Below are positions 1,578 through 22,044 of a DNA stretch of 38,982 nucleotides, one piece after another. The notes below the pieces were generated by a model. That model did not search any database and was not told the DNA's origin. It saw only the letters and a list, made by a program, of their open reading frames with translations. How positions within the stretch are numbered: position 1 is the stretch's first letter; each line of letters begins with the position of its first letter. Made by a program: the position numbers and the translations under genes. This DNA is from Kiritimatiellales bacterium (GTDB lineage Bacteria; Verrucomicrobiota; Kiritimatiellia; Kiritimatiellales; Pontiellaceae), in assembly GCA_030595785.1 (NCBI GenBank), contig JAUVCG010000002.1:1-38982 (forward strand). Direction: 5' to 3'.

Positions 1578-2072
1578 ATGGCTGCGTTTAATGTGCATGC
1601 CAAGACCGTCTACTATACCCTGGACAATGTCATGCTCGATGATGGCACACAGATGACCGGTGTGTTCTCATGGAGCTTTACCAACGATTTCGAAAAGGGC
1701 AGCGGGCAGTTTATTGCGTTGGACATCCCCTGGACGTCTCATGATGAGAGTGATCTTTTTGCCAATATTGATGTTACGAAGACCATTGAAATCACACTCA
1801 CCAACAACGTCCATGACGACGGGGTGGATATTAAACTCGTTCTGGAACAGCCTCTCACGCCCACCACCTCTTCGCTGCTTGTTTTAGAGGAACTCGTACC
1901 TGGAGAGGGAGGTGAAAGTAAGTATGAGATCGGAGGAAATGGATTTCACACCGGGCAATTCCTGAGCGGAAGTATCGCCCCGATTAATGCAACCCTGAGT
2001 ATTTCCACGCCCTCATCCGGCGGTGCCTCTCTATCGTGGGAGCCCGATTTTCCGGGTTATGTGCTGTTTTAA
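1578..2072 (+). pseudogene. Truncated secreted protein
   Basis: ILSFISMAAFNVHAKT signal-like start; C-terminal SLSWEPDFPGYVLF* looks like a 'GY-x-L-QxSTNL'-type domain cut off abruptly. The true start is uncertain and merges with the IS remnant upstream. Confidence 0.5.
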
Positions 2073-2921
2073 GGCCTTAATAAAGTCAGGACTGGTGCCG
2101 CAGCATCCGCCGATAAAGTCGGCGCCGGAGTCCATCAACGGCTGGGCAAAGGATGCAAATTCATCGGCTGTCGTTTTGTAGATCGCTTGTCCATCCACCA
2201 TCTCGGGCAGGCCGGCATTTCCCTTGATCCAGATCGGCAGGTTGGTCTTGGCTTTCATGGTGGCGCAGAGCTTGACGAAGCCTTCAATGCCTTGGCCGCA
2301 GTTGGAGCCGATCACGTCCGCGCCGGCCTCAGACAGTTCTTGAGTGGCCTGTTCGACGGTTACACCCATCATGGTGCGGTCCAGGTCGGCACCCGCGTCG
2401 TAGACCATCGACACGACAACCGGAAGGCCCGTGCCCTTGCAAGCCTTGAGTGCGATCTTGGCTTCCTCCAGATCGGACATGGTTTCGATGACCAGCCCAT
2501 CCGCGCCTCCGGTAGCCAAAGCCTTCGCCTGTTCCGAAAAAGCGTCGAAAAGTTCATCCTCGGTAACGTCGCCCATCATCAGCATTTTTCCGGTTGGGCC
2601 TACAGATGCAAAAACAAGGGCCTTGTCACCGGCCGCGCGTCTTGAAATTTCGGCCCCGGCCTTATTGACCTCTGCCACTTTATCGGCCAACCCATGGCGT
2701 TCCAGCGTAAAGCAGGTTCCTCCAAAGGTATTCGTAATAATGATCCGGCTGCCCGCTTCCACGTAGGCCTTGGCGACGGTCTCGACGATTTCGGGATTAT
2801 CCAGATTCAGCGCTTCCGGTGATTCGCCGGGTTTCAGTCCCTGCTTTTGCAGTTCCGTTCCCCATGCTCCGTCGATGAGGATCGGGCGTTCGGTCAGAAG
2901 GTTCTTGATGGTATCGTGCAT
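2031..2921 (-). CDS. Homocysteine S-methyltransferase family protein (MetH N-terminal/BHMT-like domain)
   Basis: DGAWGTELQKQGL, NTFGG, GSNCGQG and C-terminal GGCCGT zinc motif; stand-alone Hcy-binding domain. Confidence 0.93.
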   Translation of the reverse strand: MHDTIKNLLTERPILIDGAWGTELQKQGLKPGESPEALNLDNPEIVETVAKAYVEAGSRIIITNTFGGTCFTLERHGLADKVAEVNKAGAEISRRAAGDKALVFASVGPTGKMLMMGDVTEDELFDAFSEQAKALATGGADGLVIETMSDLEEAKIALKACKGTGLPVVVSMVYDAGADLDRTMMGVTVEQATQELSEAGADVIGSNCGQGIEGFVKLCATMKAKTNLPIWIKGNAGLPEMVDGQAIYKTTADEFASFAQPLMDSGADFIGGCCGTSPDFIKALKQHITRKIGLPR

Positions 2922-3023
2922 TTCCCTGCTCCCTTTCAGTTGTAGGGAGCCATTCTATTGATTAATCCGTAGATTGCACCGATTACCCGGATTTTTCTGC
3001 TGCAGATTTTAGGAAATAGAATG

Positions 3024-3104
3024 GGCAGAATAATTGAGTGGCAGAATAATTTTCTCTACTGGACGAGCGGATAAGAAATTATTCTGCCACAAAATCATTC
3101 TGCC
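3024..3104. repeat. Large imperfect inverted repeat built on GGCAGAATAATT units
   Basis: Left arm 3024-3052 GGCAGAATAATTGAGTGGCAGAATAATTT pairs with right arm 3076-3104 (26 of 29 positions); each arm contains two GGCAGAAT(A/G)ATT units. Confidence 0.8.
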
Positions 3105-3123
3105 TAAGTTCTTTCTGATTGTG

Positions 3124-4008
3124 CTACAGAAGTGCCATAAAGCGGGAGTGCAGGTCTTCCGATCCGCCTTTAACGATCCAGGCCAGACATTGTGCCATCC
3201 CCGCTTCGGCAGGGGTAATGCTGAATCCGGCCTTGGAATAGTCGAAGTAGACTGGGCCGTCCAAGGATTGGATATAGCCCTTGACGCGGTAGATGGCCTC
3301 TTCATTTTCAAGGATAAAGGCTTCGATCGCCGATGGAGCGACTGGGTGGGGTAGTTCAACGGAAAAGGCCGAGTATCGAGGGTCGCGGCACTTGGCATAT
3401 TCACCATGCAGTTCTTCGTGTGAGCCGGATTTACTCAGAACGGAGAAATCAGCCTCGCCTTTCACGCACCGCACGAGGTTGGCCCCTGACTTGATATTGC
3501 GCACGGCCTGTTCCGTATCGGTCAGCTGCTCTTCGTCGTACAGATCACACTTATTGAGCAGGACAAGATCGGCCGCCTCGACCTGGTGGATAATATTCGG
3601 CAGGGTATGGATGAGACGCAGGAAGCTGCGTGGTTCAACGATGCTGACAATATTGGCCAGCTCGAAATACCTGCCGAGTCCCGTCTCCTTCAGCATATCG
3701 GCGATCACGCGCGGGTCGGCCATGCCGCTCGCCTCGATCACGACACCCTCGGTGTCCGGGTGCTGCTCATGGATCTTCGTCATTTGCCCGATGAACTCGG
3801 TGACGAGGCACTTGCAGAAAATACTTCCTCCGGGAATGGAAACCACGTCCGGATTTTCCGCCGACACCATGGCTCCATCCACATCGAGGGCGGAAAATTC
3901 GTTGACCAGATAGATCCATTTCCTGTCACGATTTTCCTCCACGATGCGTTTCAACAGCGTGGTCTTTCCCGTTCCAAGGAATCCGGTTATTAGGCAGATT
4001 GGAATCAT
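3124..4008 (-). CDS. CobW/COG0523-family GTP-binding metallochaperone-like protein
   Basis: GFLGTGKTTLLKR P-loop, VNEFSALDVDG, EASGMADP, LNKCDLYDEEQL; Cys motif GGSIFCKC in place of canonical GCICC. Confidence 0.92.
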   Translation of the reverse strand: MIPICLITGFLGTGKTTLLKRIVEENRDRKWIYLVNEFSALDVDGAMVSAENPDVVSIPGGSIFCKCLVTEFIGQMTKIHEQHPDTEGVVIEASGMADPRVIADMLKETGLGRYFELANIVSIVEPRSFLRLIHTLPNIIHQVEAADLVLLNKCDLYDEEQLTDTEQAVRNIKSGANLVRCVKGEADFSVLSKSGSHEELHGEYAKCRDPRYSAFSVELPHPVAPSAIEAFILENEEAIYRVKGYIQSLDGPVYFDYSKAGFSITPAEAGMAQCLAWIVKGGSEDLHSRFMALL

Positions 4009-4010
4009 AG

Positions 4011-4053
4011 ATAGGCCTTGGGCTATAGGCTATAGGCTTTTGGTTTTAGGGCC
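4011..4053. repeat. GGCTATA/GGCTTTT heptad intergenic repeat
   Basis: ataggccttgggctataggctataggcttttggttttagggccc; reverse-complement relative of the repeats near 32185, 32874 and 33064. Confidence 0.55.
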
Positions 4054-5428
4054 CGACGCTCATTTTCGGCAGGGCGGCTTTTTCGATCGCCTTCACCAGT
4101 GTGGTTTGGTCGGGGATGATCGATGCAAAGGTCGGCTCGCCGTTAATGCAGATGGTCGGCAGGTTTTTAACGCCGAGTTTAACCATCATACCAATGCCTT
4201 CGCGCACCTTGATCTTGTGCTCATTGATCCACACCTTGACCATGGCGGCATCGGCAGCCATTTCAACGGCTTCCATCATATACTGGCACGGGGCGCAGGA
4301 GGTGGAGTCGAGGGTGATAACATCGAGGATCACCGCACGGGCGCCGTGGTAGTCCGGCAGGGTGACATCGTCGAACGAGTCGGCATCCTTTGCCTGAAGC
4401 GACTTGGCCGCTTCACGGGCATAGGTGTCGTGGACCAACTCGGAAACGGCCTGCAGGTTCTTCACCGGGACGGCGTAGGGCAGATCGCAGCCCGGAGCCA
4501 GGATAAAGCCCTTGCTGCCGCTCTTATTCATGATATCGAGCGTTTCCATTTTCGCGTCATCTTCATCGCCAAGCAAGAGAACGGCAGTCAGCTTGATGTT
4601 TCCGCCAAACGACTTTCCCTGGGCTTCGCAGAGCTCGCGCAGATGCGACATATCGATCTGTTCGTCCACGGAAATATTATCGGCCGTGGTTTTCGTCATC
4701 ACTTCCAGGTTGCGGGTAACATCGCCGCACACAAAGATGGAAGAGATACCTCCCTTTTCACGGATGTGGTCATAGACGTTGTTCATCGCCGGCGTGACAA
4801 ACTGCTCGAAGTGAGCGGGTGAAATCTGGCTGGTCATGGGATCGACCACCGCAATTACGTCGGCACCATGTTTCAGGTAGATGTCGGCCGACTTCTTGCA
4901 GACTTCGGCACAGTAGTTGATGACATCGATCACCACATCCTCTTCGTCATACATATCGAGGAAGATGTCATTGCCCAGCAAGTGGAGGGCGAGGGTGAAG
5001 GGACCGCAGATCAGTCCGTAAAGGGCGGTATCGTCTCCAATATCTTTCTTCAGCGTTTCCAGTGCTGCGGTGACAACCGGGAAGCGGCCTTTGGATTCAT
5101 CGATCTCGGGCAGGTCGGTAATTTTCTTACCCATGGCCAGCGGATGGCTGGTCACAGCCGGGGGAACTTCATCGGCCCAGTGCAGGTCGCAACCGAGGAT
5201 TTCGGCCTCGATCTGCAGGTCGAACATGACCGGGAGGCCGTCTGGATTATATAGTGATTTTGCTTTCTTGAGTCCTTCTACAAGTAACACTGCCGAGGTG
5301 AGATATTCCGTTGCCGTCTTACCGATAAGGTATCCGCCATGGCATCCCACAAAAGGAAGCCATGCCGGACGTTCGGTTTCTTTGCCGGCGATAGCGTCTA
5401 AAAGAATCTGTTTTCCTGTCATTTTCAT
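4046..5428 (-). CDS. Uroporphyrinogen decarboxylase-family (MtaA/MtbA-like) methyltransferase with C-terminal thioredoxin-like domain
   Basis: N-terminal ~340 aa UroD fold (GKQILLDAIAGKETERPAWLPFVG, LICGPFTLALHLLG, FVCGDVTRNLEVM, LAPGCDLPYAVPVKN); C-terminal ~95 aa with CAPC motif and NLPTICINGE, typical of small thioredoxin-fold proteins. Confidence 0.87.
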   Translation of the reverse strand: MKMTGKQILLDAIAGKETERPAWLPFVGCHGGYLIGKTATEYLTSAVLLVEGLKKAKSLYNPDGLPVMFDLQIEAEILGCDLHWADEVPPAVTSHPLAMGKKITDLPEIDESKGRFPVVTAALETLKKDIGDDTALYGLICGPFTLALHLLGNDIFLDMYDEEDVVIDVINYCAEVCKKSADIYLKHGADVIAVVDPMTSQISPAHFEQFVTPAMNNVYDHIREKGGISSIFVCGDVTRNLEVMTKTTADNISVDEQIDMSHLRELCEAQGKSFGGNIKLTAVLLLGDEDDAKMETLDIMNKSGSKGFILAPGCDLPYAVPVKNLQAVSELVHDTYAREAAKSLQAKDADSFDDVTLPDYHGARAVILDVITLDSTSCAPCQYMMEAVEMAADAAMVKVWINEHKIKVREGIGMMVKLGVKNLPTICINGEPTFASIIPDQTTLVKAIEKAALPKMSVGP

Positions 5429-5525
5429 CTCCTTGATTAAATGGTCGGGAAATAATAGAAGGATAATTTAATCCGTATAGGTTGTTATGGGCATTAAATA
5501 TGTCAATCTTGCTGTTTAATGCGGT

Positions 5526-6272
5526 TTAGGTGTCCGTATTAATGGTTACGATCTGCTCCGTGTGATCTGCGGAAATTTTTGCTCCGGGCGGAACGACGAG
5601 GAAATCTTCCGGATTCCAGTTCCCGTTAAGCAGGCAGCGGATAAGGGTGAGGTCGCCGGCGACTTTTTCATAGTTCCACTGTTTGGATGCGGCTTCTTCC
5701 CGGGCGATCTTTTCAAAGCGGTCGTCGGGCTCAACGCCCATTTCAATGAAGGTAATCTGTGAATAGTTTTTGCCTCTATCACAAAGTTCTTCCTTCAGAA
5801 ATTCGGCGTTGTCTTCGCCATATTTTTCGACGAGCTGCTCGTAGGTCATATCCATGCCCAGCTGGTTAGGGATGGAGAGCTCTTTGAGTTCTTCGGCAAC
5901 CTCGTCCCGTTCAATCCATCCCGTGGTCAGGAAATAGGTGCCGAGGTTGGCGTCAAAGTATGCCTGATATTTTTTACGGCTTCCGAAGAAGAGGGTAATG
6001 CAGTCATGTGCGCGTGGCAGGATCAACTGAACTCCGCGCGCCCTGAGTCCGACAAGCCCATTGTTGCAGAGTCCGTAGCCCAGAAGAATGGCATCGTAAT
6101 CCTGTTCCGAAGCCTTATCCACTTGCGCCTGAAGCCGCTTGAGCATTTCTTCGGTCGGAATATCGTGCAGGCCCTTCTGCAAAAACTCCACATCAATTGC
6201 GTGGGGTGACTGCTCCAGCAGGAACTCCATCTCCCGGAAAAATATCTCGCAACTGATTAGTTTAAACTTCAT
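5526..6272 (-). CDS. DUF1638 domain-containing protein
   Basis: MKFKLISCEIFFREMEFLL, LLGYGLCNNGLVGLRA, LILPRAHDCITLFFGSRKKY, GTYFLTTGWIE. Start moved to 6272 from the longer ORF. Confidence 0.85.
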   Translation of the reverse strand: MKFKLISCEIFFREMEFLLEQSPHAIDVEFLQKGLHDIPTEEMLKRLQAQVDKASEQDYDAILLGYGLCNNGLVGLRARGVQLILPRAHDCITLFFGSRKKYQAYFDANLGTYFLTTGWIERDEVAEELKELSIPNQLGMDMTYEQLVEKYGEDNAEFLKEELCDRGKNYSQITFIEMGVEPDDRFEKIAREEAASKQWNYEKVAGDLTLIRCLLNGNWNPEDFLVVPPGAKISADHTEQIVTINTDT

Positions 6273-6492
6273 AGGATTTAATCCGTTGGTATTCAATCTG
6301 TAGCACAATGGGTAAAATGAAAAACGTCGCTGGAAAACAAGAAAACGGCAGATAGTAGCAACCATGTTAATTTAGTCCAACCTAGCAGAACTGGATCCAA
6401 AACGAAAAGAATCCTGCACAACCGTGACCGAATTCGAAAAGTGAAGTATACGTTTTCTGGTTCCGTGTGTTCAGTGTATTCCGTGGTTTATA

Positions 6493-8133
6493 TTAATTCT
6501 GTCCAGTGTTGGGGAAGTCGTCCTCGTCGAGGTTGGGGATGGCGAGGGCTTCCTGGAAATAGTTGGTGAACCATGCCGTTTTGTTGAGTTCAACAATACG
6601 CGGACGGTCGATGATTTCGAGGTAGGCCGGCCCCGCGCTTCGGTCGAGCAGGGCGAGTCCCGCGCCGGCCAGGGAACCATTGCCGATCACTTCATAGTTT
6701 TCGGTTCCAATGTCTGGAAGAAGTCCCAGGGCAATGGCGTTTTCAAGGCGGATGTGCTTGGCGAAGCCACCAGCGAGGAAGACCCGATCGAGGTCGTGAA
6801 TGGTTTTTCCCAATTCGGCCAGAAGGGTCTTCAATCCGGAATAGATGGCGGCCTTGGCCTTGAGGATTTCGGCGATGTCGTGCTCGGTGACGGTGATGGA
6901 TTCGCCGGTTGCCGACTCGTCCGGGGGGACCAGCACGCACGCATGCATCCCGGAAACCGACTCGTAGCACTCTTTTTCCTTGAGCAGTTCCACGTCGTAG
7001 CGACCCATGGCATTGATGAGTCCGCAACGGAAGCCTTCGGCAATAAAGTCGATGATGGCGGAGCCGCAGAGCCCCATGGGAACGGGGTCGCCGATGATGG
7101 TTAGCTTGAAGTCGAGGTTTTCGTCGTAGCGAATGGTATCGATGGCGCGGCTGGCGGCGCGTGCGCCGTGCAACAGTCCTGCGCCTTCGAAGGCCGGACC
7201 AGCCGCCGTGGCGCAGGCGGTTACCTGGTCGTCGTGGTAGGCCACCATTTCGCCGTTGGTTCCAATGTCGACCAGCAGGACCAATCCGTTTTGCTTGCAC
7301 AGCTTGGCCACGTGGAGGTCGGAGGTGATGTCGCCACCGACATAGCCCGAGATGGCGGGAATGGCTTCGACCACCGCATCGGGATGGGTGTCGATCCCCA
7401 GCGCGCCGGCCGGGCTTTCGAAGGTTCGGCTGACGGGATCGAAGGGGAGCACGCCGATGCTGACCGGCGAAACCCCGTAGAAGATATGCATCATCACGGT
7501 ATTGCCGGATATCGCGAGGTGCACAATATCGTTTTTGTCAATGCCGTGGTCGGCGCAGAGCTTGTGGATGATGGGATTGAGGGTGTGGTTGATCACCAGC
7601 TCTTTCAATGTCTCGAGACAGCCGGGTTCGCTGCAAAGCGATATGCGCGAGACAACATCGTCGGCCTTGAGAATCTGCTGGTTGTAGAGCGATTCGCGCC
7701 CGAGCGTCCCGCCGGTTTCCAGGTTGATTAGCGCCGCCACCACGGTGGTGGTTCCAATGTCGACGGCAAGGCCGTATCCGGAGGGGAAACGAGGGTTGAA
7801 GGTGTGTTCTGGAATATCCATTTCATCGGCGATGCGGGCTCCTTCGAACGAAATAACGGAAGCGCGGGGCAGGAAGATTTCGGCGGTGTTTCCCAGCACA
7901 TGGGCCTGGCACGAAAGCACTTCGCGCCGTTGCTCGGGATGAACCTCGATCTCTTCGTCGAACACGCGGTAGCGGCCTTCGCCAAGCAGGACATTGCAAC
8001 GGCCGCACGATCCCTTGCCGCCGCACTTGGCCTCGAGGTTCTGCCCGGCGGCGCGCGCCAGCTCCAAAACGCAAAGACCGCTGTCGTTTTCGACAGCGGT
8101 CGACTGTCCATCGAAATGGAAAGTGATGGCCAT
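6493..8133 (-). CDS. RACo-like corrinoid activation protein: 2Fe-2S ferredoxin domain plus DUF4445/ASKHA ATPase
   Basis: N-terminal CGGKGSCGRC 2Fe-2S motif; GYGLAVDIGTTTVVAAL, GNTVMMHIFYGV, LVDIGTNGEMV, GLCGSAIIDFIAE, VFLAGGFAKHI. Confidence 0.93.
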   Translation of the reverse strand: MAITFHFDGQSTAVENDSGLCVLELARAAGQNLEAKCGGKGSCGRCNVLLGEGRYRVFDEEIEVHPEQRREVLSCQAHVLGNTAEIFLPRASVISFEGARIADEMDIPEHTFNPRFPSGYGLAVDIGTTTVVAALINLETGGTLGRESLYNQQILKADDVVSRISLCSEPGCLETLKELVINHTLNPIIHKLCADHGIDKNDIVHLAISGNTVMMHIFYGVSPVSIGVLPFDPVSRTFESPAGALGIDTHPDAVVEAIPAISGYVGGDITSDLHVAKLCKQNGLVLLVDIGTNGEMVAYHDDQVTACATAAGPAFEGAGLLHGARAASRAIDTIRYDENLDFKLTIIGDPVPMGLCGSAIIDFIAEGFRCGLINAMGRYDVELLKEKECYESVSGMHACVLVPPDESATGESITVTEHDIAEILKAKAAIYSGLKTLLAELGKTIHDLDRVFLAGGFAKHIRLENAIALGLLPDIGTENYEVIGNGSLAGAGLALLDRSAGPAYLEIIDRPRIVELNKTAWFTNYFQEALAIPNLDEDDFPNTGQN

Positions 8134-8138
8134 GCGCG

Positions 8139-8765
8139 TTAAGCGGCGAGGCCGAGCGCGATCTTCGCGGATTTAACCGCTGTGTTGGCATCATCGGAGT
8201 ATCCGTCGGCGCCGATTTCATCAGCATATTCCTGGGTGACGGGTGCGCCGCCGATCAGAATCTTGGCGCCGCAGTTGCCCAGGCCTTCGATGACTTCTTT
8301 CATGTAAGGCATGGTGGTGGTGAGCAGTGCGCTGAGCAGGATAACCTGGGCGCCGCCATCGACGGCTTCCTTGTACTTATCCACATCGCAGTCGACGCCG
8401 AGATCCATTACTTCGAAGCCCGCACCCTTGAGCATCATGGCGACGAGGTTTTTACCGATATCGTGCAGATCACCCTTGACGGTTCCGATGGCTACCTTGC
8501 CGATCGGTTCGTGTCCGGCCTCCTGCAGCAGCGGATCGAGAATGTCGAGACCGGCCTGCATGGCGCGGGCGGCAATGAGCATTTCCGGCACATAGGCTTC
8601 GTTGCGCGAAAAGCGGTCACCGATCTCCGCCATAGCTGGAATCATGGACTCCATTAAAATCTCTTCCACATTGGTGCCGGCAGCGACGAGTTCATTGACG
8701 ATGGATGAAACATCCTTGCGTTTACCTTTCAAGACCGCTTCATAAAGTGCTTCGTTTTTAGCCAT
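8139..8765 (-). CDS. Corrinoid (B12-binding) protein of the methyltransferase type
   Basis: Cap-domain helices then GTVKGDLHDIGKNLVAMMLKGAGFEVMDLG (DxHxxG) and GGAPVTQEYADEIGADGYSDDA. Confidence 0.96.
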   Translation of the reverse strand: MAKNEALYEAVLKGKRKDVSSIVNELVAAGTNVEEILMESMIPAMAEIGDRFSRNEAYVPEMLIAARAMQAGLDILDPLLQEAGHEPIGKVAIGTVKGDLHDIGKNLVAMMLKGAGFEVMDLGVDCDVDKYKEAVDGGAQVILLSALLTTTMPYMKEVIEGLGNCGAKILIGGAPVTQEYADEIGADGYSDDANTAVKSAKIALGLAA

Positions 8766-8973
8766 ATCTTCTTCCCCCAGGTTTGTTTGGTTATTTGGTG
8801 TTGTATACTATCCTGTTTTTTTAACCCTTAATTGCAATCTAAAATAGAACAATAGAGCTGAAAAACAAAACGATCTTGCTGAATTGCTTGATTTGCAGTG
8901 TCAGCGGTCGGTTTTGTTACTTTGTCACATGCCAATATTTCATTCGATTGCAACTCCGCGCGAGTATTGAAAA

Positions 8974-10737
8974 CTAGAACAATCCTGTCACTTTGCCGGT
9001 CTCCACGTCTACATCGATCTTGCGGAAGCCGGGGTTCGATCCGGTGCCCGGAAGCAGCTTGATATCTCCCGCAACCGGGACAACAAAGCCAGCGCCCTTG
9101 TAGATGAGTACATCGCGGATCGGCAACGTCCAGCCGGTTGGCCGGCCCTTGAGGTCGGGATTGTGGGATAGGCTCAGGTGGGTCTTCACCATGCACATGC
9201 CCATGCGGGCTATTTCCGGATTGCTCTGGAATCGGTTGATTTTTTCTTCTGCCTCATCAGACCATTCCACACCGTCCGCGCCGTAGATTTCAGTGGCGAT
9301 TTTTTCGACGCGATCCTTTAAGGGCATGTCGAGTTCGTAGAGGTAGTCGAAGGTATTCTCCTCCTCGCAGGCCGCCACGACGGCCTCGGCCAGTTCAATG
9401 GCTCCGTCGCCCCCCTTGAGCCAGTGCTCCGAAACCGCGCATCGGGTGCCGTGTGCTTCGGCCACTTTACGCACGAGCTGATGCTCGGCTTCGGTGTCGG
9501 TGTAGAAGCCGTTGATGCAAACGACCGGGGTCGCACCACTCTTCTTGACGGTTTCAATATGTGCGACCAGGTTTTCGCAACCGGCTTCGAGAAACTCCAA
9601 ATGCTCTTCGGTGTAGGTCGGATCGAGCGGTTTCCCGGGTTTCACAGCAGGGCCTCCACCATGCATCTTCAGCGCGCGAACCGTCGCCACAATAACAACC
9701 GCATCGGGTTTCAGGCCGGAGTAGCGGCATTTGAGGTTCCAGAATTTTTCAAAACCAATGTCAGCTGCGAATCCGCTCTCGGTGATTAGATACTCACCCA
9801 TGCGGATGCCAAGCATGTCGGCAATTACTGAACTCTGACCAATGGCAATATTGGCGAACGGACCCGCATGAACGAGGACGGGATTGCCTTCAATGGTTTG
9901 CACCAGATTGGGGTTGAGCGCTTTAGCCATTAGAGCCGTCATTGCGCCATCCACTTCAAGGTCGGCGGTGGTGACTTCTTCGCCGGAGCGGCTATAGGCT
10001 ACGACCATTTTTCCAATGCGTTCGCGCATGTCTTTCATGCTGTCAGAGACGGCCAGAATGGCCATGATTTCACTCGAAACGGTGATCTGAAAGCCAGATT
10101 CCATCTCATAGCCGTCCATCTTGCCACCCTTGCCGATGGTAATGTTGCGCAGTGACTGGGCGCAGAAGTCGATGGCCCATTTGATCTGCACGCGTTCGGG
10201 GTCGATATCCAGGCGCGGGATGCCAATCTTGGCGAGGCGCTCGTCATCATAATTGTGTTCGTGCTGCATACGGGCGGTGAGCGCCACCATGCAAAGGTTG
10301 TGGGCGTTGGTGATGGCGTCGATGTCGCCAGTGAGTCCGAGCGAAAACGGAGCCAGCGGGATACATTGCGCAAGGCCGCCGCCGGCGGCGGAGCCCTTGA
10401 TGTTAAAGGTGGGGCCGCCGCTGGGTTGGCGAATGGCGCCGACCGGTTTCTTTCCGATTTTGCCGAGTCCTTCCACGAGCCCCATCGTCGTGGTGGTCTT
10501 GCCTTCACCAAGCGGGGTGGGGGTGATGGCGGTCACATCCACATACTTACCGCGGGGCAGATCCTTTACGCGGTTCCAGGCCCGCATGAAATCGATCTTC
10601 GCTACGCTTTTCTCCATGGGAAGCAGCTCGCCGTATGCCAGACCGAGTTTTTCAGCGATCTCCTGAATGGGCTTGATGTTCTGTTCTGCGGCTTCGGCAA
10701 TCTGCCAGTCCGCCATTTGGGTTGGGTCAAGTTTCAT
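8974..10737 (-). CDS. fhs: Formate--tetrahydrofolate ligase
   Basis: [48 protein letters not shown]; start at MKLDPTQ with AGGAAA RBS. Confidence 0.97.
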
Positions 10738-10778
10738 AGTTTTTCCTGGTTTCATTATTCAGAATCCGATTATTGTAT

Positions 10779-13220
10779 TTATTTTCTGAGGCTGTCGCAG
10801 AATTCGCCCATCAATTCGATAGCATCGTTGGTTTTGTCCATGTCGCCATCCATCGCTGCGTAGGCGGATACCAGCTCGACCAGTTTCGGGTCGGCGGGCT
10901 TGGCCCCGAATTTATGGGCGGCGTTCACGATGCCGGCATCGAGGCCGTACTCCATCGCTTTTTCAACGTAGGCGCGGCAGATACCGATCTTCCGGCCGGG
11001 CAGGTCGCGGCAGCAGTTGCTCACGCCCATTGAGAAATGCACGCCCTTCATTTCCGGATCGTTTTTGATGACCTTGATGGTCTCGAAAGCGCGGTAGGTA
11101 TAGCCGGGTACGTCCGGCATCATCGGCATGTCGATGGCCAGCGGGAACACGGTGGAATCGAAGAAGATCTCTTCGGGCTTGAAGCCGTGCTGCATGGCCT
11201 TTGCATAGATTTCTTTGGCCAGGGCAACCAGCTCCTCCACCGAATGTGATCCGCCGGGGCCGGTGGCCGCGTCTTCGCTCATGAGCAGGCCGATGAACGA
11301 AAAGTCGTATTCCTTTTTCAGCGGCATCATCTCATCCGCGGTGTAGGTCTTGATGGAATTGACCAGCGGAGGCTTAACGGGATCTTCCGTGTTGTACCAT
11401 TCCTTCAGGCCGGCCAGCAGTACGTTGTCGTCGGAGCTGTCGATGCAGGCCGGAACGCTGCCGCCCCATTTACGGACAAGTTTAACGTATTCCACCATGA
11501 TATCGATGGAGAGCTGCGGGTCGGATTCGCCAAAGGCATCCATGTTGATGGCGATATAGTCGGCACCGTTGGCGGCCTGCTCCTCGATCAGCGCGCGGAT
11601 ATAGTCGAGCTGAGGGCTGTCGGTTTCGTAGGCGCCTTTGCCCAAGGCGTGCAGTTCGTGCATGACCGCGGCGTGCCTGGGAATGGAAGCGTGGATGTCT
11701 TCGCCGATCGTGATGATTGCATTTTTCATGGTGTGATCCTTTCCGAATAGATAGTTCAAAATCGATGATGAATGTTCAAGCGTCGCAATACGGGGATTAT
11801 TGATGGTTTTTCGCAGCCGTGCCAAGCCGCCTTCTTCGGCTTTTGCCGCCCAATAAATCTGCTCTCCGCGGCAGATCACGCCGTCCTCGTTGCCGCAGGT
11901 TCCGTCGGGCTTGGCATCTCCGCAGGGTGCGTTGGCCAGCCCTTTCGCACAGCCGCCCAGTGTGCAGTAGCCAAAGTTTTCCGCAAGATAGCAGTCTCCG
12001 CACTCCTCGCATTCAAAGGCGGCGTGCTTGGCGATACGCTCCATGGCAAAGAATGATTTTGCAGCCCATCCTTCCGGCTTCTTTTTCGCACCGGCCAACT
12101 CCATGGTTTTTTTGAATCCGTGAAATCCCTTGTGGTCTGGATCGAGCAGGGATTTGTGCATAAAGTTGAACCAGCGCTGGTGCAGCGTCTGTTTGCCCGG
12201 TGACAACTCCTGCTTTTCGCCCTCTTGGTCATAGAGGTAGAAGGTTTCTGCCGGCGGCCAGCACAGGTTGTCCTGGAATTCGACCCAGCCCTCGCCGATT
12301 TCGGCGGCACGCTGGAGGATCTTGCAGAACGTGTTATGGTCGTGCACGCCCCCGAGATCGATGCCCGCATAGCCCAGCGCCTTGTACATGGCAACCTGTT
12401 GCGCCGCCCGTTCGAGATGTTCTTCGGAAGTTTCCGATTTCAACTTGGCCAGAAACTCATCACTCACATGGCAGCCCGGCAGCTTGCCGGTGTTCATCAG
12501 GCGCGGTGCGGCGTTGGTGGTGGTCAGAAAATAGACGTTTCCAAGCACGGGGACATTCAGCTTGGCTTCTTCCATGTAAAACTTGAGTTCGAGCGATTTT
12601 TTCCAGTCCCATCCCACCTGGGTAATCAGGAAGCGTGCCCCACAGGTGACCTTCTTTTCCATCTTGAAATATTGCTGCAGCTGCGACGGCTCGGAATATT
12701 TGAACGGCGAAACGGCGGCGCCGGCAACCAGCTGCGGTACCTGATCGAGGTCAGCATGCTTTCCCTTAAGCAGTTCCTCGCGGTTCATCCGGGAGATCTG
12801 CTGGAGCAGCCCGACCGCTTCCAGTTCGAACACCCCCTTGGCGCGTACCGGCACATCACCGGTCAGCGCCAGCACCGTTCGAACGCCGCGTTGTTTGTAG
12901 CCGATTAGCATAGAATTCAGTGCGGATTGGTTATGATCCTTGCAACTGATATGGGGAATATAATCAAGACCGTCGAGCAGATCCGTCATCGCCAGCTGCG
13001 CCAGCACATCCGAAGGATCAAGGTTTGAAACGCCGCCCGGGTTTTGCGGCAGTGCCACACCGGCGAAGTCGAAGCCCGCAGGAATATCACTTCCCCCTGC
13101 CGCCTTGTGTGCTTCGAGGAACTTCATGATAGGAGCCATGCTGTAGCCGCGCCCCGATGTCAGCTCGGCGATGACCGTGAACTCCGTATCTTTCAATAAG
13201 CTGTCTTTAAGTCGTTTCAT
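10779..13220 (-). CDS. Fusion: MetF-type methylenetetrahydrofolate reductase + MTHFR C-terminal (MetV-like) Cys-rich domain + pterin-binding methyltransferase domain
   Basis: N-term TEFTVIAELTSGRG and HISCKDHN; middle CEECGDCYLAENFGYCTLGGCAKGLANAPCGDAKPDGTCG; C-term TIGEDIHASIPRH, CIDSSDDNVLLAGL, GVSNCCRDLPGR typical of MeTr/MetH pterin domains. One uninterrupted frame. Confidence 0.92.
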   Translation of the reverse strand: MKRLKDSLLKDTEFTVIAELTSGRGYSMAPIMKFLEAHKAAGGSDIPAGFDFAGVALPQNPGGVSNLDPSDVLAQLAMTDLLDGLDYIPHISCKDHNQSALNSMLIGYKQRGVRTVLALTGDVPVRAKGVFELEAVGLLQQISRMNREELLKGKHADLDQVPQLVAGAAVSPFKYSEPSQLQQYFKMEKKVTCGARFLITQVGWDWKKSLELKFYMEEAKLNVPVLGNVYFLTTTNAAPRLMNTGKLPGCHVSDEFLAKLKSETSEEHLERAAQQVAMYKALGYAGIDLGGVHDHNTFCKILQRAAEIGEGWVEFQDNLCWPPAETFYLYDQEGEKQELSPGKQTLHQRWFNFMHKSLLDPDHKGFHGFKKTMELAGAKKKPEGWAAKSFFAMERIAKHAAFECEECGDCYLAENFGYCTLGGCAKGLANAPCGDAKPDGTCGNEDGVICRGEQIYWAAKAEEGGLARLRKTINNPRIATLEHSSSILNYLFGKDHTMKNAIITIGEDIHASIPRHAAVMHELHALGKGAYETDSPQLDYIRALIEEQAANGADYIAINMDAFGESDPQLSIDIMVEYVKLVRKWGGSVPACIDSSDDNVLLAGLKEWYNTEDPVKPPLVNSIKTYTADEMMPLKKEYDFSFIGLLMSEDAATGPGGSHSVEELVALAKEIYAKAMQHGFKPEEIFFDSTVFPLAIDMPMMPDVPGYTYRAFETIKVIKNDPEMKGVHFSMGVSNCCRDLPGRKIGICRAYVEKAMEYGLDAGIVNAAHKFGAKPADPKLVELVSAYAAMDGDMDKTNDAIELMGEFCDSLRK

Positions 13221-13535: not shown

Positions 13536-14744
13536 ATGTCGATCTTGTCAAAGCGTCTTTTCGGTTTAGTGGCCGCGGATTACCGTAAATCATACGGTCA
13601 GAATATTTGCATGTCGGATTGCGACGGACGAGTGGCCATGCCCGAAGTGTCGAATCCTATCGAAAACCTGCCGGCGTTATGTCATTTGCGCTGGCACAAC
13701 CTCAACGAGTCGCTGCGTTGGGGCGAGCCGCAGGTGTTTTTTGTGGCACCGGGCATCATGAGTTGGATGGTACCCATGGTGGATAAAACCGAACTCAAGG
13801 GAGGGCTGTGCGGAGGATATATTCTACTGGAAGACGATCCGCAAAGCATCATTGCCTCGGTCAACTATTTTGTGGGAGAGGGTGCAAAGCGCAAGGACGC
13901 CCAGGCGTTTGTCCGGGGATTGGAACCCTTCGAGCAGGGGCGAGTGCGCGAGGCGGCAGATCACCTTCATGAATTGTTTTATCAGTACAGTGGATGGCAA
14001 CCCTTGGAGCTGAAGCGCAACCGCGATCAGATGATGCAGCAGCGACAGATTGCCGAAGAGATCCACCAACGTAAGGTCGAGCAAAACCGCGCTTATCCTT
14101 ACGATGACGAACGCATTCTGCTTTCCCTCATCCGCGTGGGTGACCGGGCCGGTGCACGGAAGATATTCAACAAGATGCTCGCCGCCATGTTTCTCTATTC
14201 CCCCAAACAGGTGGTCGTTCGTGCGCGTGCGATCGAAATGATGGGTTATCTCGTGCGCGCAGCGGTCGAGGACAGCCCGTTGATGGAGCCGTTGATGGAG
14301 CGGCACATGAACTGGATCGAGCAGATTGTTGAGACCAGGGACTTTGATGATCTCTGCAATGTGTTGATGGAAGCACTGGATGACTTCATGAACAGCATTT
14401 TCCTGCAGGGCGTCAGTCCGGTCAGCCCCGCCGTGGGTAAGGCCCTCGACTACATTGCCGCAAACTTTACCGAGTCGGTCTCGCTCGAGGAAATTTCCAA
14501 TGCCGCCGGGTTGAGCACCTTCCGCATAGCGCATTTGCTCAAAGAGGCCACCGGAAAGACCGCGTTACAGAATATCCACTACCTGCGCATCCAGGAGGCG
14601 CGCCGCCTGCTTGAAACCAGCGATATGTCCTGCACCGACATTGCCTACGAAACCGGATTCGGTGACCAAAGCTACTTTATCAAACAATTCCGTAAGTGGA
14701 TGGGCATCACTCCGGCAAAATATAGAAAGTCGTTTCGCAGTTAG
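13536..14744 (+). CDS. AraC-family transcriptional regulator with PocR-like N-terminal sensory domain
   Basis: C-terminal double HTH (SVSLEEISNAAGLSTFRIAHLLKEATGKTALQNIHYLRIQEARRLLETSDMSCTDIAYETGFGDQSYFIKQFRKWMGITPAKYR); N-terminal CHLRWHNLNESLRWGEPQVFFVAPGIMSWMVP. Confidence 0.9.
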   Translation: MSILSKRLFGLVAADYRKSYGQNICMSDCDGRVAMPEVSNPIENLPALCHLRWHNLNESLRWGEPQVFFVAPGIMSWMVPMVDKTELKGGLCGGYILLEDDPQSIIASVNYFVGEGAKRKDAQAFVRGLEPFEQGRVREAADHLHELFYQYSGWQPLELKRNRDQMMQQRQIAEEIHQRKVEQNRAYPYDDERILLSLIRVGDRAGARKIFNKMLAAMFLYSPKQVVVRARAIEMMGYLVRAAVEDSPLMEPLMERHMNWIEQIVETRDFDDLCNVLMEALDDFMNSIFLQGVSPVSPAVGKALDYIAANFTESVSLEEISNAAGLSTFRIAHLLKEATGKTALQNIHYLRIQEARRLLETSDMSCTDIAYETGFGDQSYFIKQFRKWMGITPAKYRKSFRS

Positions 14745-17287: not shown

Positions 17288-18466
17288 TTATTTCAGTTCG
17301 GGAACGTCGACCCATTTCCGCTCTTTCCAGCTCTGCATACCGAGCTCGGCGAGTTGGACGCCCTTGGCTCCTTCCATAAGAGAATAGTTCCATTCGGTGT
17401 CGAGCACAACGTGCCTGATGAACATTTCCCACTGAATCTTGAAGGCATTCTCATATCCAATGTTATTCGGAACATCTTCCCAGCAGTCGAGATGGTCGAT
17501 CGTCTGCGGAATATCGGGGTTCCAAACCGGTTTCGGCGTATTGACGGCCGCCTGGGTTTTGACTTCGCGCAGGCCCGCTACTGCCGAGCCCTTGACGCCA
17601 TCGACGTGCACGGTCAGCAGATCGTCGCGGCGGACGCGGGTACACCATGAGCTGTTGAACTGAACCATGGTTCCGTCTTCGAGAACAAACATGGCATAGG
17701 CGGAATCGTCGGCTGTACATTTGAACGGAGTGCCGTCTTCGGCGCGGCGCTCGGGCAGGTCGGTCGCGCCGTAGGCCACGAGGCTCTTGACCGGGCCGAA
17801 TATGTTGTCGATCACGTAGCGCCAGTGACAAAACATATCAATCATCATACCGCCGCCGTCTTCGGATCGGTAGTTCCAGCTCGGGCGCTGGGCAGGCTGG
17901 TCGTAGTCCATGCCGGTGAAGACCCAATATCCGAATTCGCCGCGTACGGAAAGGATCTTGCCGAAGAAGCCGAGTTCCTTAAGCATCTTGAGCTTACGGA
18001 ATCCGGGCAGCCAGAGCTTGTCCTGCACAACGCCGTTCTTGAGGCCGGCATCGTCGACCAGCCTGGCGAGGCGGACCGCTTCTTTCGTTTCGACGGCGGT
18101 CGGCTTTTCGCAGTAGATCGCCTTGCCCGCCTTCACGGCCATTTCGACAAAGTTAGCGCGCTGGAGTGTGCCGGAGGCGTCGAAAAAGATTTCGTAGTCG
18201 CCGTATTTCCCGTCGAGCGCGCCCTGTACGTCGGTGGTGTATTTAAAGGCTTCGCCGCAGGCGTCATTGCCGTATGTTTCGGCGAGTTCTTTGAGCGCAT
18301 ATTCGCGGCGTCCGGTCAGGATCGGGTCGGGCATAATAATGAGATCGTTGCCGACTTTAATTCCGCCTTCTTTGATGATAGCAGCAATAGAGCGCGCCAG
18401 GTGCTGGTTAGTGCCCATGCGCCCGGTCACGCCGTTCATGATGATTCCGATACGTTTGATTTCCAT
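17288..18466 (-). CDS. Gfo/Idh/MocA-family oxidoreductase
   Basis: IKRIGIIMNGVTGRMGTNQHL, ADFDASGTLQRANFVEMAVKAGKAIYCEKPTA-like segment with EKP motif, GGGMMIDMFCHWRYVID. Start moved to 18466. Confidence 0.92.
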   Translation of the reverse strand: MEIKRIGIIMNGVTGRMGTNQHLARSIAAIIKEGGIKVGNDLIIMPDPILTGRREYALKELAETYGNDACGEAFKYTTDVQGALDGKYGDYEIFFDASGTLQRANFVEMAVKAGKAIYCEKPTAVETKEAVRLARLVDDAGLKNGVVQDKLWLPGFRKLKMLKELGFFGKILSVRGEFGYWVFTGMDYDQPAQRPSWNYRSEDGGGMMIDMFCHWRYVIDNIFGPVKSLVAYGATDLPERRAEDGTPFKCTADDSAYAMFVLEDGTMVQFNSSWCTRVRRDDLLTVHVDGVKGSAVAGLREVKTQAAVNTPKPVWNPDIPQTIDHLDCWEDVPNNIGYENAFKIQWEMFIRHVVLDTEWNYSLMEGAKGVQLAELGMQSWKERKWVDVPELK

Positions 18467-18758
18467 GTTGAATCTCCAGTTCAATGTAGTTGTTAAGTTG
18501 ATGGTTGTTGGTTGATGAGGATCGTTTAAATCGTTCAAGCGATGCTGCGCATCTCGTTGAAGTCGCGAAAGTCGAACTCCTTTTATTGCCCAACCCGGCT
18601 CAGCCGGAACCAATTTAACAGAAGAGCGCAAAGATCGCGAAGCAGGACGGTTGCCTACCTTTGCGAACGTTGCGACCTTGGTGTAAAAAATCCTGTGTAA
18701 ACATGATTGAATTTGGAAAGTAAGGTACTAAAGCCCAGCGCCTATGGCCTAAAGCCTT

Positions 18759-19223
18759 CTAAATAATAATCGGCCCTCCATCGGGCATTTCGGTACACTG
18801 GGGCTGAGCGCCTTCGGGCAGGGCGGGTACGTCGACGCCTTCTTTCGGGAGGGTGCCGGCCAGCTCCTGTCGCCAGTGGGCGACGTCGCCGGCGGGGCCG
18901 TAGCAGTAGATGAAGTGCAGCGGCTCATCGCCAATGTTGGTCATTTGGTGAAAGACGGTCGGCGGAATCTGAACAATCTGTTCGGCCGTCATTTCGAGGC
19001 GCTCTTCACCGAGGCACATTTCGCCGCGACCCGAAACGACGAAGTAAACTTCTTCGGATTCCTGGTTGTGCCACGGAACCTGTCCGCCGTTGGGTTCGAG
19101 AGTAACATAGCCCATGCAGAAGTTATCGCATTGGACGGGCGACATGCCTCCCACAAGGTTTTGTGTCAGCCGCCGCGCGGGATAGGTGCGGCCTTTGATT
19201 TCGTTAAGATCTCCGATGATCAT
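18759..19223 (-). CDS. Cupin-domain protein
   Basis: VPWHNQESEEVYFVVSGRGEMCLGEERLEMTAEQIVQIPPTVFHQMTNIGDEPLHFIY. Confidence 0.9.
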   Translation of the reverse strand: MIIGDLNEIKGRTYPARRLTQNLVGGMSPVQCDNFCMGYVTLEPNGGQVPWHNQESEEVYFVVSGRGEMCLGEERLEMTAEQIVQIPPTVFHQMTNIGDEPLHFIYCYGPAGDVAHWRQELAGTLPKEGVDVPALPEGAQPQCTEMPDGGPIII

Positions 19224-19240
19224 GGTTTTCTCCTTCAGGG

Positions 19241-20611
19241 TTACAGATAAAACTTCAGGTAGGGTTCATCATTTGCGAGGCGCTGAACGTAGAGGGCGGC
19301 TTCGCGGGCGTGGTAGTCTCCCCACATGCTTGATTCTCCGCACGGCACCACCTGACCTTCCGGAATATGGTCCCAGCCGTTCGGACGATGGTAGACCGAA
19401 TGCAGGATGAGTCCCTGATGGGATTCATCGAGGCTGAGATAGGTGTCGCCGATTAGCGTTTTCATGGTGGTCAGGCCGGCCTGCATATAGCGTTTGGCCG
19501 CCTCCGGTTCCTTATCCTGCAGATAACGGCCGAGCCGCAACAGCCCTTGTACGCCGATCGCAGCGGCGGAGGAGTCGATCGGTTCGGCGTCGTTGAACGG
19601 ATCGGATTCGCGTTCATTAACATCCTCTCCGAGCTTGTGGGTGTTGAGTGCGCCGGTGTCCCAATAGGGGATGCCGTCGGTGGCGGTGTTTTCAATATAG
19701 AAGTCGCAGGTGGCTTTGGCCATCTTCAGCAGGAAGGCTTCGATGGCTTCGCGTCCGCCCAGCGGTTCGAGCTCGGTGTCGTCGACCGTGGACAGAAACT
19801 CCAGCTGCTCCGGTGCGCCGACCATGACCCAGGCGAGGCCGCGCGTCCAGGTGGTGAAGGGCGAAAAGCCCTGCTGCGAGTTGGGGCATCGGTAGTTGCA
19901 GTCGTTGAGGTTGAAGATGCTTTCGTGGGCCGTACGTCCCCAGAGGTCGTAGTAGTCGCGTCCTTCACCATAGTAGACCGCGAAGTCGGCTGTTGATTTT
20001 GCATGGTATACGAGCCGCTCAAGCAGACTCGTTTCCTTGTCGTTCTCGCCCATGAAAGAGGAGCCGAGCTGATGTGCCACAGCCAGTGCGCGCAACGAGC
20101 GGATCGTGTCGGCAAACAGCGAATGCGGGCCGTTGAACGAATAAATATATCCACCATCCGGCAGCGTGGTCCAACGGCGAGCCTGTACCGAGCCCGAGGC
20201 CTTGAGAGCTATTTCGTAGAAGTTGCGTTCCCATTCGTTTTCCGGAATCCGGCCTTCGTTCATCAGACGGAGCAGGTTGCCGTAGGTGCTGACATTGTTG
20301 AAGCCGTGGTCGTGTACACCGAAGTGAGAAACGTGCGTTGCCATCTTATCAACGGTATTTTTCTTTCCCATTTCAAGGAAAGACGCATCGCCGGTTGCGT
20401 CGAACTGCAGGATTTCGGAGCCATATTGAAAGCCCTGCGTCCATTCGGTCCAGCCGCGCGTGGTGTATTGCCCTTCAATCGTGAAAACGGGCGATCCGTT
20501 TGCTGGGTCATAGTTTTGATTTAGATGGTTGATCTTTTGGCCGGAAGCCTTCCAAAAACGTTCCAGATCGGGAAGTAGACCTGTCGCAGTGAGGTTATTA
20601 TTGATATCCAT
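19241..20611 (-). CDS. Glycoside hydrolase family 88 (unsaturated glucuronyl hydrolase-like)
   Basis: DHGFNNVSTYGNLLRLM, TTWTRGLAWVMVGAPEQLEFL, GWDHIPEGQVVPCGESSMWGDYHAREAALYVQRL. Start moved to 20611. Confidence 0.9.
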   Translation of the reverse strand: MDINNNLTATGLLPDLERFWKASGQKINHLNQNYDPANGSPVFTIEGQYTTRGWTEWTQGFQYGSEILQFDATGDASFLEMGKKNTVDKMATHVSHFGVHDHGFNNVSTYGNLLRLMNEGRIPENEWERNFYEIALKASGSVQARRWTTLPDGGYIYSFNGPHSLFADTIRSLRALAVAHQLGSSFMGENDKETSLLERLVYHAKSTADFAVYYGEGRDYYDLWGRTAHESIFNLNDCNYRCPNSQQGFSPFTTWTRGLAWVMVGAPEQLEFLSTVDDTELEPLGGREAIEAFLLKMAKATCDFYIENTATDGIPYWDTGALNTHKLGEDVNERESDPFNDAEPIDSSAAAIGVQGLLRLGRYLQDKEPEAAKRYMQAGLTTMKTLIGDTYLSLDESHQGLILHSVYHRPNGWDHIPEGQVVPCGESSMWGDYHAREAALYVQRLANDEPYLKFYL

Positions 20612-20702
20612 AATATTTCTCCAAAGATAAATATAGTCATAAATTATATTGCAACAGAATATTGTCAAGCGTTATATTGAACTCCTTCAAATGAGGAAAA
20701 TA

Positions 20703-21251
20703 ATGGGATCTAATAACGAAAACGGGATGGATATGTACAATTTTTCGGTATTGCGTGACCTGCGCAAACGTGCCGAAATGACGATTGCCGATCTTTCCGC
20801 TCGTACAGGCATATCGCCGGCGGTCATTTCAAAGCTGGAGCGGAATCAGACGACGGCCGAACTCAAAACACTCTTTCGGTTGGCACGTGCGTTCGGGTTG
20901 ACCGCATCAGAGATGCTTGCGCTGGTCGAATCGCGTACGGCCCAGTGCAAAGATGAGACGGATCGACGTGCAGGAGATTTCCATTTCAGGCAGATCGAGT
21001 TTGCGAACAGCAAGTGTTTTTATGCGGATGCTCCGAAGGGTGCGGCCCGGTCCAATCCGGATGCTCATCGCGACGACTTTGAGATCTGCTGGGTATTGGA
21101 GGGAAAAGTGCGCATTGAACTGCCGTATGAAAGTCATGTGTTGTCTACCGGTCAATGCCTCCAGTTCGATGCGGTTTTTGAACATACCTATGAAGTATTG
21201 GAAGACTGCCGGATCATCATTCAGCATATCAGTAAAGCGAAGCGGTTTTAA
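20703..21251 (+). CDS. XRE-family HTH regulator with C-terminal cupin
   Basis: LRDLRKRAEMTIADLSARTGISPAVISKLERNQTTAELKTLFRLARAFGL, then cupin-like FEICWVLEGKVRIELPYESHVLSTGQCLQFDAVFEHTYEVLED. Start at MGSNNEN. Confidence 0.88.
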   Translation: MGSNNENGMDMYNFSVLRDLRKRAEMTIADLSARTGISPAVISKLERNQTTAELKTLFRLARAFGLTASEMLALVESRTAQCKDETDRRAGDFHFRQIEFANSKCFYADAPKGAARSNPDAHRDDFEICWVLEGKVRIELPYESHVLSTGQCLQFDAVFEHTYEVLEDCRIIIQHISKAKRF

Positions 21252-21270
21252 TCAACAAGGGAGTCCAGGC

Positions 21271-22044
21271 ATGAAAAGAACAGCATTGGTAACGGGCGGC
21301 GGTAGGGGGATCGGTTTTGGCATTTGCGAAAAGCTGGCATCCGACGGGTTCAACCTCGTTTTAAGTGGGCGCAGCGATGCATCGAAAGTGGCGGACTCCG
21401 TCCAGGCCTTGGAAGCCATGGGTGCGGAAGTGCTCTATTGCTCCGGCGATGTTTCTTCCGCTATTGATCGCGCAGCGATGCTGAAGGAAATCAAGGCGCG
21501 CTTCGGCCGTCTCGATGTACTCGTCAATAACGCCGGTGTCGCACCGAGGGTTCGCGCCGATATCCTTGAAGCGGATGAAGACAGTTTTGAATGGATCATG
21601 AAGATTAACCTGCAGGGTCCCTACTTCCTGACACAGGCTGTCGCCAACTGGATGATAGAACAAAAACAGGCCACCGACTCTTTTGAAGGCTGCATTATCA
21701 ATGTCGGCTCCATCTCCGCAACGGTCGTATCGCCGAACCGCGGTGACTACTGCATTTCGAAGGCCGGCCTCGGCATGATGAGTTCGCTTTTCGCAGCGCG
21801 TCTGGGCGAGTTCGCTATTCCGGTCTATGAAATTCGGCCGGGCATTATCAAGACCGACATGACCGCAGGTGTAACCGACAAATATGACAACCTTATTCAT
21901 AACACCGAGCTACTGGTCGAAAAGCGTTGGGGGCTTCCGGAGGACATCGGCAAGCTTGCCGCGGCCATGGCGCGCGGCGATATGCCATACGCATCCGGGC
22001 AGGCTATATATGTGGACGGCGGACTGACCCTTCCGAGGCTGTAG
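21271..22044 (+). CDS. Short-chain dehydrogenase/reductase (3-ketoacyl-ACP reductase-like)
   Basis: TALVTGGGRGIGFGI, DVLVNNAGVAPR, YCISKAG, ASGQAIYVDGGLTLPRL. Confidence 0.95.
   Translation: MKRTALVTGGGRGIGFGICEKLASDGFNLVLSGRSDASKVADSVQALEAMGAEVLYCSGDVSSAIDRAAMLKEIKARFGRLDVLVNNAGVAPRVRADILEADEDSFEWIMKINLQGPYFLTQAVANWMIEQKQATDSFEGCIINVGSISATVVSPNRGDYCISKAGLGMMSSLFAARLGEFAIPVYEIRPGIIKTDMTAGVTDKYDNLIHNTELLVEKRWGLPEDIGKLAAAMARGDMPYASGQAIYVDGGLTLPRL

Follow-up and report, generated by a model that had tools for sequence, protein, structure and literature searches.

We suggest that the minus-strand gene cluster at positions 2031-13220 of the window, the whole 38,982-nt contig (C35) analysed here, is probably a common hub of corrinoid-dependent demethylation in Pontiella-type Kiritimatiellota, with formate and methionine as its exits. 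The genome, that of a Pontiella-type marine bacterium, is a draft (1.78 Mb in 137 contigs, 59% complete); it was compared, on the basis of draft genomes, within a set of 28 genus genomes and across 146 relatives, and the distribution tests are profile searches. The cluster encodes a homocysteine S-methyltransferase (HcyMT), a corrinoid protein, a RACo-type activase, a DUF1638 protein, formate--tetrahydrofolate ligase (Fhs), a fusion of MetF, MetV-type and pterin-binding methyltransferase domains, a UroD-family protein fused to a thioredoxin-like domain (UroD-Trx) and a CobW-family GTPase (Table 1). The gene order is repeated in other genus genomes at 66-91% protein identity, and the cluster is therefore not a chance assembly.

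In the scheme that we infer for the reactions of the hub, their direction and their substrates, methyltransferases encoded elsewhere (mostly of the UroD family, with MtaB in one congener) would place a methyl group onto the Co(I) corrinoid protein, and RACo together with DUF1638 would bring the corrinoid back to Co(I). By the first exit, the pterin domain could hand the methyl group to tetrahydrofolate (THF), and the MetF/MetV part of the same fusion would oxidise it, followed by FolD, Fhs (with one ATP) and export of formate by FocA. By the second, it could be transferred to homocysteine via HcyMT, giving methionine.

Modules of the cluster

An earlier note, made from the sequence alone, had read this cluster as a disassembled methionine synthase, with homocysteine (Hcy), corrinoid and pterin modules as separate pieces and a RACo-type activase in place of the MetH reactivation domain. 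The open reading frames match its coordinates, every gene product could be assigned by Pfam, and both the separate modules and the type of activase are confirmed. The activase has a complete domain set (Fer2, Raco_middle and RACo_C_ter), its nearest solved relative being RACo (3zyy, 7e-97). Single-chain methyl-carrier corrinoid proteins are the best solved relatives of the corrinoid protein, which scores higher on the MtgC and MtbC models of NCBIfam than on MetH models; at 144-164 bits on the MtgC models, against equivalog cut-offs of 310-370, this is a type-level similarity only. HcyMT has the Hcy domains of MetH as its best solved relatives. What the earlier inventory had not noticed is that MTHFR, the MetV-type domain and Pterin_bind form one 813-aa chain, that UroD-Trx carries a thioredoxin-like domain with CAPC and that FolD and FocA belong to the locus in relatives. 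The Hcy and corrinoid modules are on other chains than this fusion, and its pterin domain is closest to AcsE-type MeTr.

Retention of MetH and the proposed methionine exit

The cluster is not the cell's methionine synthase, or not its only one, and its reading as a replacement for MetH does not hold. Of the 28 genus genomes, 27 have MetH, this one included, mostly as open frames of ~1230-1290 aa; the sole genome without it (G012) is 85% complete. Here, a second PF02574 gene on contig C52 goes on into pterin and B12 cap domains before the contig breaks off, which is why the PF02965 reactivation domain was not found in this genome's assembly. The one copy scanned, that of G024, has all five domains including PF02965 (2e-119). 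A complete metH elsewhere in the genome, which the earlier note had set beforehand against its own reading, is thus present in relatives and very probably here too.

Orthologues of HcyMT (77-88% identity) occur in 10/11 RACo-positive genus genomes, all except G013, and in 0/17 RACo-negative ones (p = 8e-7), tracking RACo even in genomes where they lie far from the hub. Among class members, HcyMT adjoins RACo or the corrinoid protein in L285, L287, L290, L292 and L302, with no pterin gene in the stretches seen. This co-occurrence suggests a probable side exit in which the methyl-corrinoid passes its methyl group to homocysteine, by analogy with Ruegeria MtgBCDE, where methionine synthesis and betaine demethylation both depend on MtgC (PMC12478193), and we infer that HcyMT is functionally coupled to this corrinoid protein. 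The check across relatives that the earlier note had proposed, namely module co-occurrence, therefore bears out its grouping of HcyMT, corrinoid protein and RACo, both in the conserved order and in the tracking of RACo by HcyMT. A small operon in G014 (C143, L083), a genome without RACo or DUF1638, consists of a corrinoid protein (44% identity), an HcyMT (45%) and a UroD-family gene.

A biosynthetic split methionine synthase would also need these modules: formate would be converted to methyl-THF by Fhs, FolD and MetF and the corrinoid protein would carry the methyl group on to homocysteine, RACo serving for reactivation, as in Phaeobacter; in a variant, such a route, anaerobic or fed by formate, may exist as a second one alongside MetH. 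Its modules, RamA-like activase and DUF1638 match the Phaeobacter set, which experiments showed to be needed there for making methionine, Sinorhizobium meliloti keeps MetH alongside a RamA-like protein and DUF1638 (PMC5764234), and the place of HcyMT in the window operon, together with its link to RACo and the corrinoid protein in the genus and class, fits as well. We nevertheless regard this explanation as unlikely, since MetH is kept throughout the genus, HcyMT is often outside the locus, and several class-level hubs with HcyMT have no pterin methyltransferase in the stretch read. It would also leave unexplained the UroD expansion, MtaB, FocA and the inducible-type AraC regulator.

Candidate methyl donors

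The demethylation hub that we favour requires methyl donors, and the earlier note had seen no substrate methyltransferase of the MttB or MtaB type. For MttB (PF06253) this stands, as the family was found in 0/28 genus genomes by a search that detected it in a Methanosarcina control genome. For MtaB it does not: an operon in G012 joins MtaB (3e-155) to a CobW-type gene, the corrinoid protein (88% identical), RACo and DUF1638, and MtaB also occurs in the hub loci of two other class members (G030 and G049), all spotted by eye within hub loci and not by a genome-wide search. Adjacent substrate methyltransferases, the second observation named in advance as contrary to a split synthase, are therefore present in relatives.

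UroD-family paralogues follow RACo much more widely. Two or more PF01208 genes were found in 71/75 RACo-positive and 9/71 RACo-negative genomes among the 146 relatives (p = 3e-26), and three or more in 67/75 and 5/71, respectively; gene counts had a ceiling of 13 scored candidates per genome. Within the genus, at least three UroD genes are present in 11/11 RACo-positive and 1/17 RACo-negative genomes, and the locus of the lone exception (G017) ends at a contig end. The genus MetH tree requires at least 7 changes of the hub label, near the 8.8 of shuffled labels, so the link between UroD genes and RACo cannot be traced to one inherited event. Sister pairs show the same pattern, with nine UroD genes in G016 (hub) against one in G001 (no hub), and four in G000 (hub) against one in G007 (fusion remnant). 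The remnant in G007 (C236, L045) has an intact Fhs and only a short piece of the fusion, and this genome has no UroD paralogues besides HemE.

With HemE and UroD-Trx left out, the genus paralogues mostly carry the metal motifs HSCG, HCCG or HxDG, the third ligand being H, N, E, D or Q; His-Cys-Cys is seen in just three of them. The paralogues score higher on MtaA/CmuA models than on HemE. The combination of a UroD fold, an HxC/D motif and a non-Cys third ligand is thus found in most genus paralogues outside the window, and not in UroD-Trx, which has FxC. S/Se substrates have been associated with His-Cys-Cys, and O substrates with sites where a ligand is substituted (PMC10418091), and the motifs of the paralogues are consistent with O-demethylation. 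In the genome studied here, one UroD gene accompanies a sodium:solute symporter and another is paired with an AraC gene; their motifs are HSCG/HCCG, the third ligand not having been read in these two.

For 27 UroD loci from genomes of the P. desulfatans, P. sulfatireligans and G024 types, 108 neighbours were set against 100 neighbours at 20 control positions, 18 of them random and two hand-picked against overlap. Two groups were commoner near UroD paralogues: AraC regulators, with 10 vs at most 1 in the controls (p = 0.01), and transporters of solutes or sugars, with 8 vs at most 1 (p = 0.04); the p values carry no multiple-testing correction and use the most cautious control count, because single-member families were incompletely listed. 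The excess of alpha-L-fucosidases (5) and FA_desaturases (6) was not significant in this comparison. Sulfatases, considered as a sign of polysaccharide loci, were rejected at 8/108 against 13/100 control neighbours. Genes of the fatty-acid-desaturase type adjoin UroD paralogues in L133, L137, L138 and L143, three of them with the motif HSCG...GNQ, and Rieske proteins are also found near the paralogues, in an organism described as anaerobic.

Some of the UroD-family genes lie beside fucosidases, sugar transporters and AraC regulators. We put forward, as a tentative idea that may well prove wrong, that marine anaerobic polysaccharide degraders among the Kiritimatiellota could strip O-methyl groups from algal sugars by means of expanded UroD-family methyltransferases feeding one formate/methionine hub. 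Demethylation by P450 is known for 6-O-methyl-galactose, and an anaerobic UroD route would be its counterpart.

The proposed formate exit

In relatives the locus runs AraC-FolD-fusion-FocA (PF01226)-Fhs-corrinoid protein-RACo-DUF1638, with UroD-Trx, CobW and HcyMT as a separable unit. The presence of Fhs, FocA, FolD and MetF-MetV beside a putative methyl-corrinoid:THF methyltransferase points to oxidation of the methyl group to formate; the reverse direction, from formate to methyl, would use the same enzymes, and the sequence is compatible with either.

The closeness of the pterin domain to AcsE and of the activase to AcsV, together with Fhs and MetV-type domains, would be typical of the methyl branch of a Wood-Ljungdahl pathway, and a relative in the Kiritimatiellae (L284) has what appears, by eye, to be a CODH/ACS-type cluster beside RACo. 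However, AcsB/CdhC (PF03598) was found in 0/28 genus genomes, leaving the pterin domain without a CFeSP acetyl-CoA partner; the carrier is not CFeSP but a single-chain corrinoid protein of the MtgC type, and in Planctomycetota the fusion has neither CODH/ACS nor corrinoid genes as a repeated neighbour. A Wood-Ljungdahl role is therefore hardly credible.

Among named genomes the fusion is carried by Kiritimatiellales/Pontiellaceae and, more distantly (47-64%), by Planctomycetota. Its use as a marker of the corrinoid system was rejected, the Planctomycetota copies being mostly without other hub genes. Their commonest neighbour, seen by eye in 28 loci on the same strand (L156-L228), resembles a gene of the thiamine-phosphate-synthase type. 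In P. sulfatireligans F21 (G021, L039) the fusion extends over two overlapping frames (6704-7810 and 7762-9141), either a true split or a sequencing error.

Several observations weigh against a demethylation hub with a formate exit. The window itself has no substrate methyltransferase with an intact HxC motif, UroD-Trx being without the His, and FolD and FocA are not in the window's locus, the rest of the genome not having been searched for them. The hub of G027 has no fusion, so the THF exit is not universal. Further to that, Pontiella type strains did not grow on methanol (PMC7356697), and formate has been reported only as a minor product (PMC6388578).

UroD-Trx, CobW and DUF1638

UroD-Trx resembles MtaA (4ay7) in sequence (2e-22) and in predicted fold (TM 0.88), the structure model only confirming the MtaA fold. 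At its zinc site FxC replaces HxC in 14/14 orthologues, with both Cys kept and CAPC invariant. The protein is 54-90% identical across the class, where it usually lies beside RACo and has the CobW gene next to it. That the cluster consists of two independent neighbouring modules, a methyl-to-formate unit and a UroD-Trx/CobW/HcyMT unit of unrelated thiol or cofactor function, would agree with the missing zinc-site His and with the occurrence of the latter unit alone in G003 and G012. Given the co-occurrence of the units (10/11 RACo-positive vs 0/17 RACo-negative genomes), and with UroD-Trx adjoining RACo in most class-level loci that hold it, such independence seems to us very unlikely.

DUF1638 is present in 57/75 RACo-positive and 2/71 RACo-negative genomes. 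The part conserved in relatives begins near 6272; numbered from the Met at this position, Cys69 and Cys91 do not vary among 18 sequences and Cys8 hardly does, a pattern that would fit a metal or Fe-S site. The protein is fused to CobW in three genomes (by Pfam in L294 of G072; by similarity in L293 of G059 and L295 of G092) and to a UroD domain in L128 (G023). No solved structure matched the predicted model (pLDDT 84.7) at E < 0.001, and consequently no role was assigned. In Phaeobacter, DUF1638 and a RamA-like protein are needed for methionine synthesis, again with no role given (Price 2018, PMC5764234). The association of DUF1638 with corrinoid and methionine functions, mentioned in the earlier note, agrees with both its membership in that set and its distribution with RACo.

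Cluster layout and neighbouring genes

All genes of the cluster lie on one strand, and the AraC regulator opposite them has the same position in relatives (73-85% identity). An Rfam scan found neither a cobalamin riboswitch nor another Rfam RNA at the cluster, just two tRNAs. Upstream of the 3' end of the cluster, a piece of an IS110-type transposase (853-1368) lies beside tRNA-Leu (569-654). The stretch 17288-22041, near the hub, encodes a Gfo/Idh oxidoreductase, a cupin, a weak GH88-type match and a short-chain dehydrogenase, which are likely to serve uronate or sugar processing.

Table 1. Genes of the predicted corrinoid hub and its divergent regulator, with window positions and the supporting matches
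Predicted product	Position	Strand	Basis
Homocysteine S-methyltransferase (HcyMT), MtgE-like module	2031..2921	-	PF02574 (S-methyl_trans) 5e-69
CobW-family GTPase, possible metal or cofactor chaperone	3124..4008	-	PF02492 4e-36
UroD-family (MtaA/CmuA-like) + CAPC thioredoxin-like fusion (UroD-Trx)	4046..5428	-	PF01208 2e-55; weak Thioredoxin_3 6e-5
DUF1638 protein	5526..6365	-	PF07796 2e-37; likely start ~6272
RACo/RamA-type 2Fe-2S corrinoid reductive activase	6493..8133	-	PF14574 3e-74, PF17651, Fer2
Corrinoid (methyl-carrier) protein, DxHxxG motif	8139..8765	-	PF02607 (B12-binding_2) + PF02310 (B12-binding)
Formate--tetrahydrofolate ligase (Fhs)	8974..10755	-	PF01268 (FTHFS) 2e-228; NCBIfam equivalog over cut-off
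Trifunctional fusion MetF + MetV-type + methyl-THF:corrinoid methyltransferase domain	10779..13220	-	PF02219, PF12225 (DUF5981), PF00809
Divergent AraC-type regulator	13536..14744	+	PF12833 5e-24

Comparison with known systems

If right, the hub reading would mean that one corrinoid protein can combine demethylation with methionine synthesis in anaerobic Kiritimatiellota as well as in aerobic marine Proteobacteria, with another family of substrate enzymes. It would offer a testable function for the many genes of the UroD family that bear the annotation 'uroporphyrinogen decarboxylase' in these genomes. It would also mean that DUF1638 follows the RamA/RACo activase in a second phylum. The part that may be new is the feeding of one hub by UroD-family methyltransferases, some of them beside fucosidase and sugar-transporter genes.

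For Phaeobacter inhibens, a split methionine synthase that works with DUF1638 and a RamA-like protein has already been published (Price 2018, PMC5764234), and is similar to the present cluster in its separate Hcy, corrinoid and pterin modules, its RACo/RamA-like activase and DUF1638. The Phaeobacter system, however, replaces MetH and has scattered genes, whereas MetH is kept in this genus; here, moreover, the pterin module shares a chain with MetF-MetV, Fhs is in the locus (FocA and FolD in relatives), and UroD-Trx and CobW are added. MtgBCDE of Ruegeria pomeroyi, a glycine-betaine demethylase/methionine synthase for which use in both directions has been proposed, shares an MtgC-type corrinoid protein, pterin and Hcy modules, RamA and DUF1638 with the hub (PMC12478193); it differs in its substrate enzyme, this genus being without the MttB family, whose place UroD-family proteins or MtaB appear to fill.

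Aromatic O-demethylases of the MtoABCD/Mtv type likewise combine a corrinoid protein, a 2Fe-2S activase and a methyltransferase to a pterin carrier, and their substrate methyltransferases have been placed in an MtaA/CmuA-type tree (PMC8630106). Unlike in those systems, the substrate genes here are not placed with the hub, and some have fucosidases and sugar transporters nearby. The present system also has HcyMT, DUF1638 and the MetF-MetV fusion in addition, and formate appears to be the destination of the methyl group. In type 1 mlp clusters the Mlps are almost always His-Cys-Cys and there is no folate methyltransferase (Kountz and Balskus, PMC10418091), whereas most paralogues here are not His-Cys-Cys and a folate methyltransferase is present; no Mlp2 or Mlp3 with His-Cys-Cys was found in the window cluster, its single UroD protein, UroD-Trx, being Phe-Cys-Cys. 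The core folate-independent methionine synthases MesA-D share with the proposed methionine exit the idea of passing a corrinoid methyl group straight to homocysteine, but they are MetE-fold enzymes (PMC7857596), while HcyMT is a MetH-type PF02574 protein.

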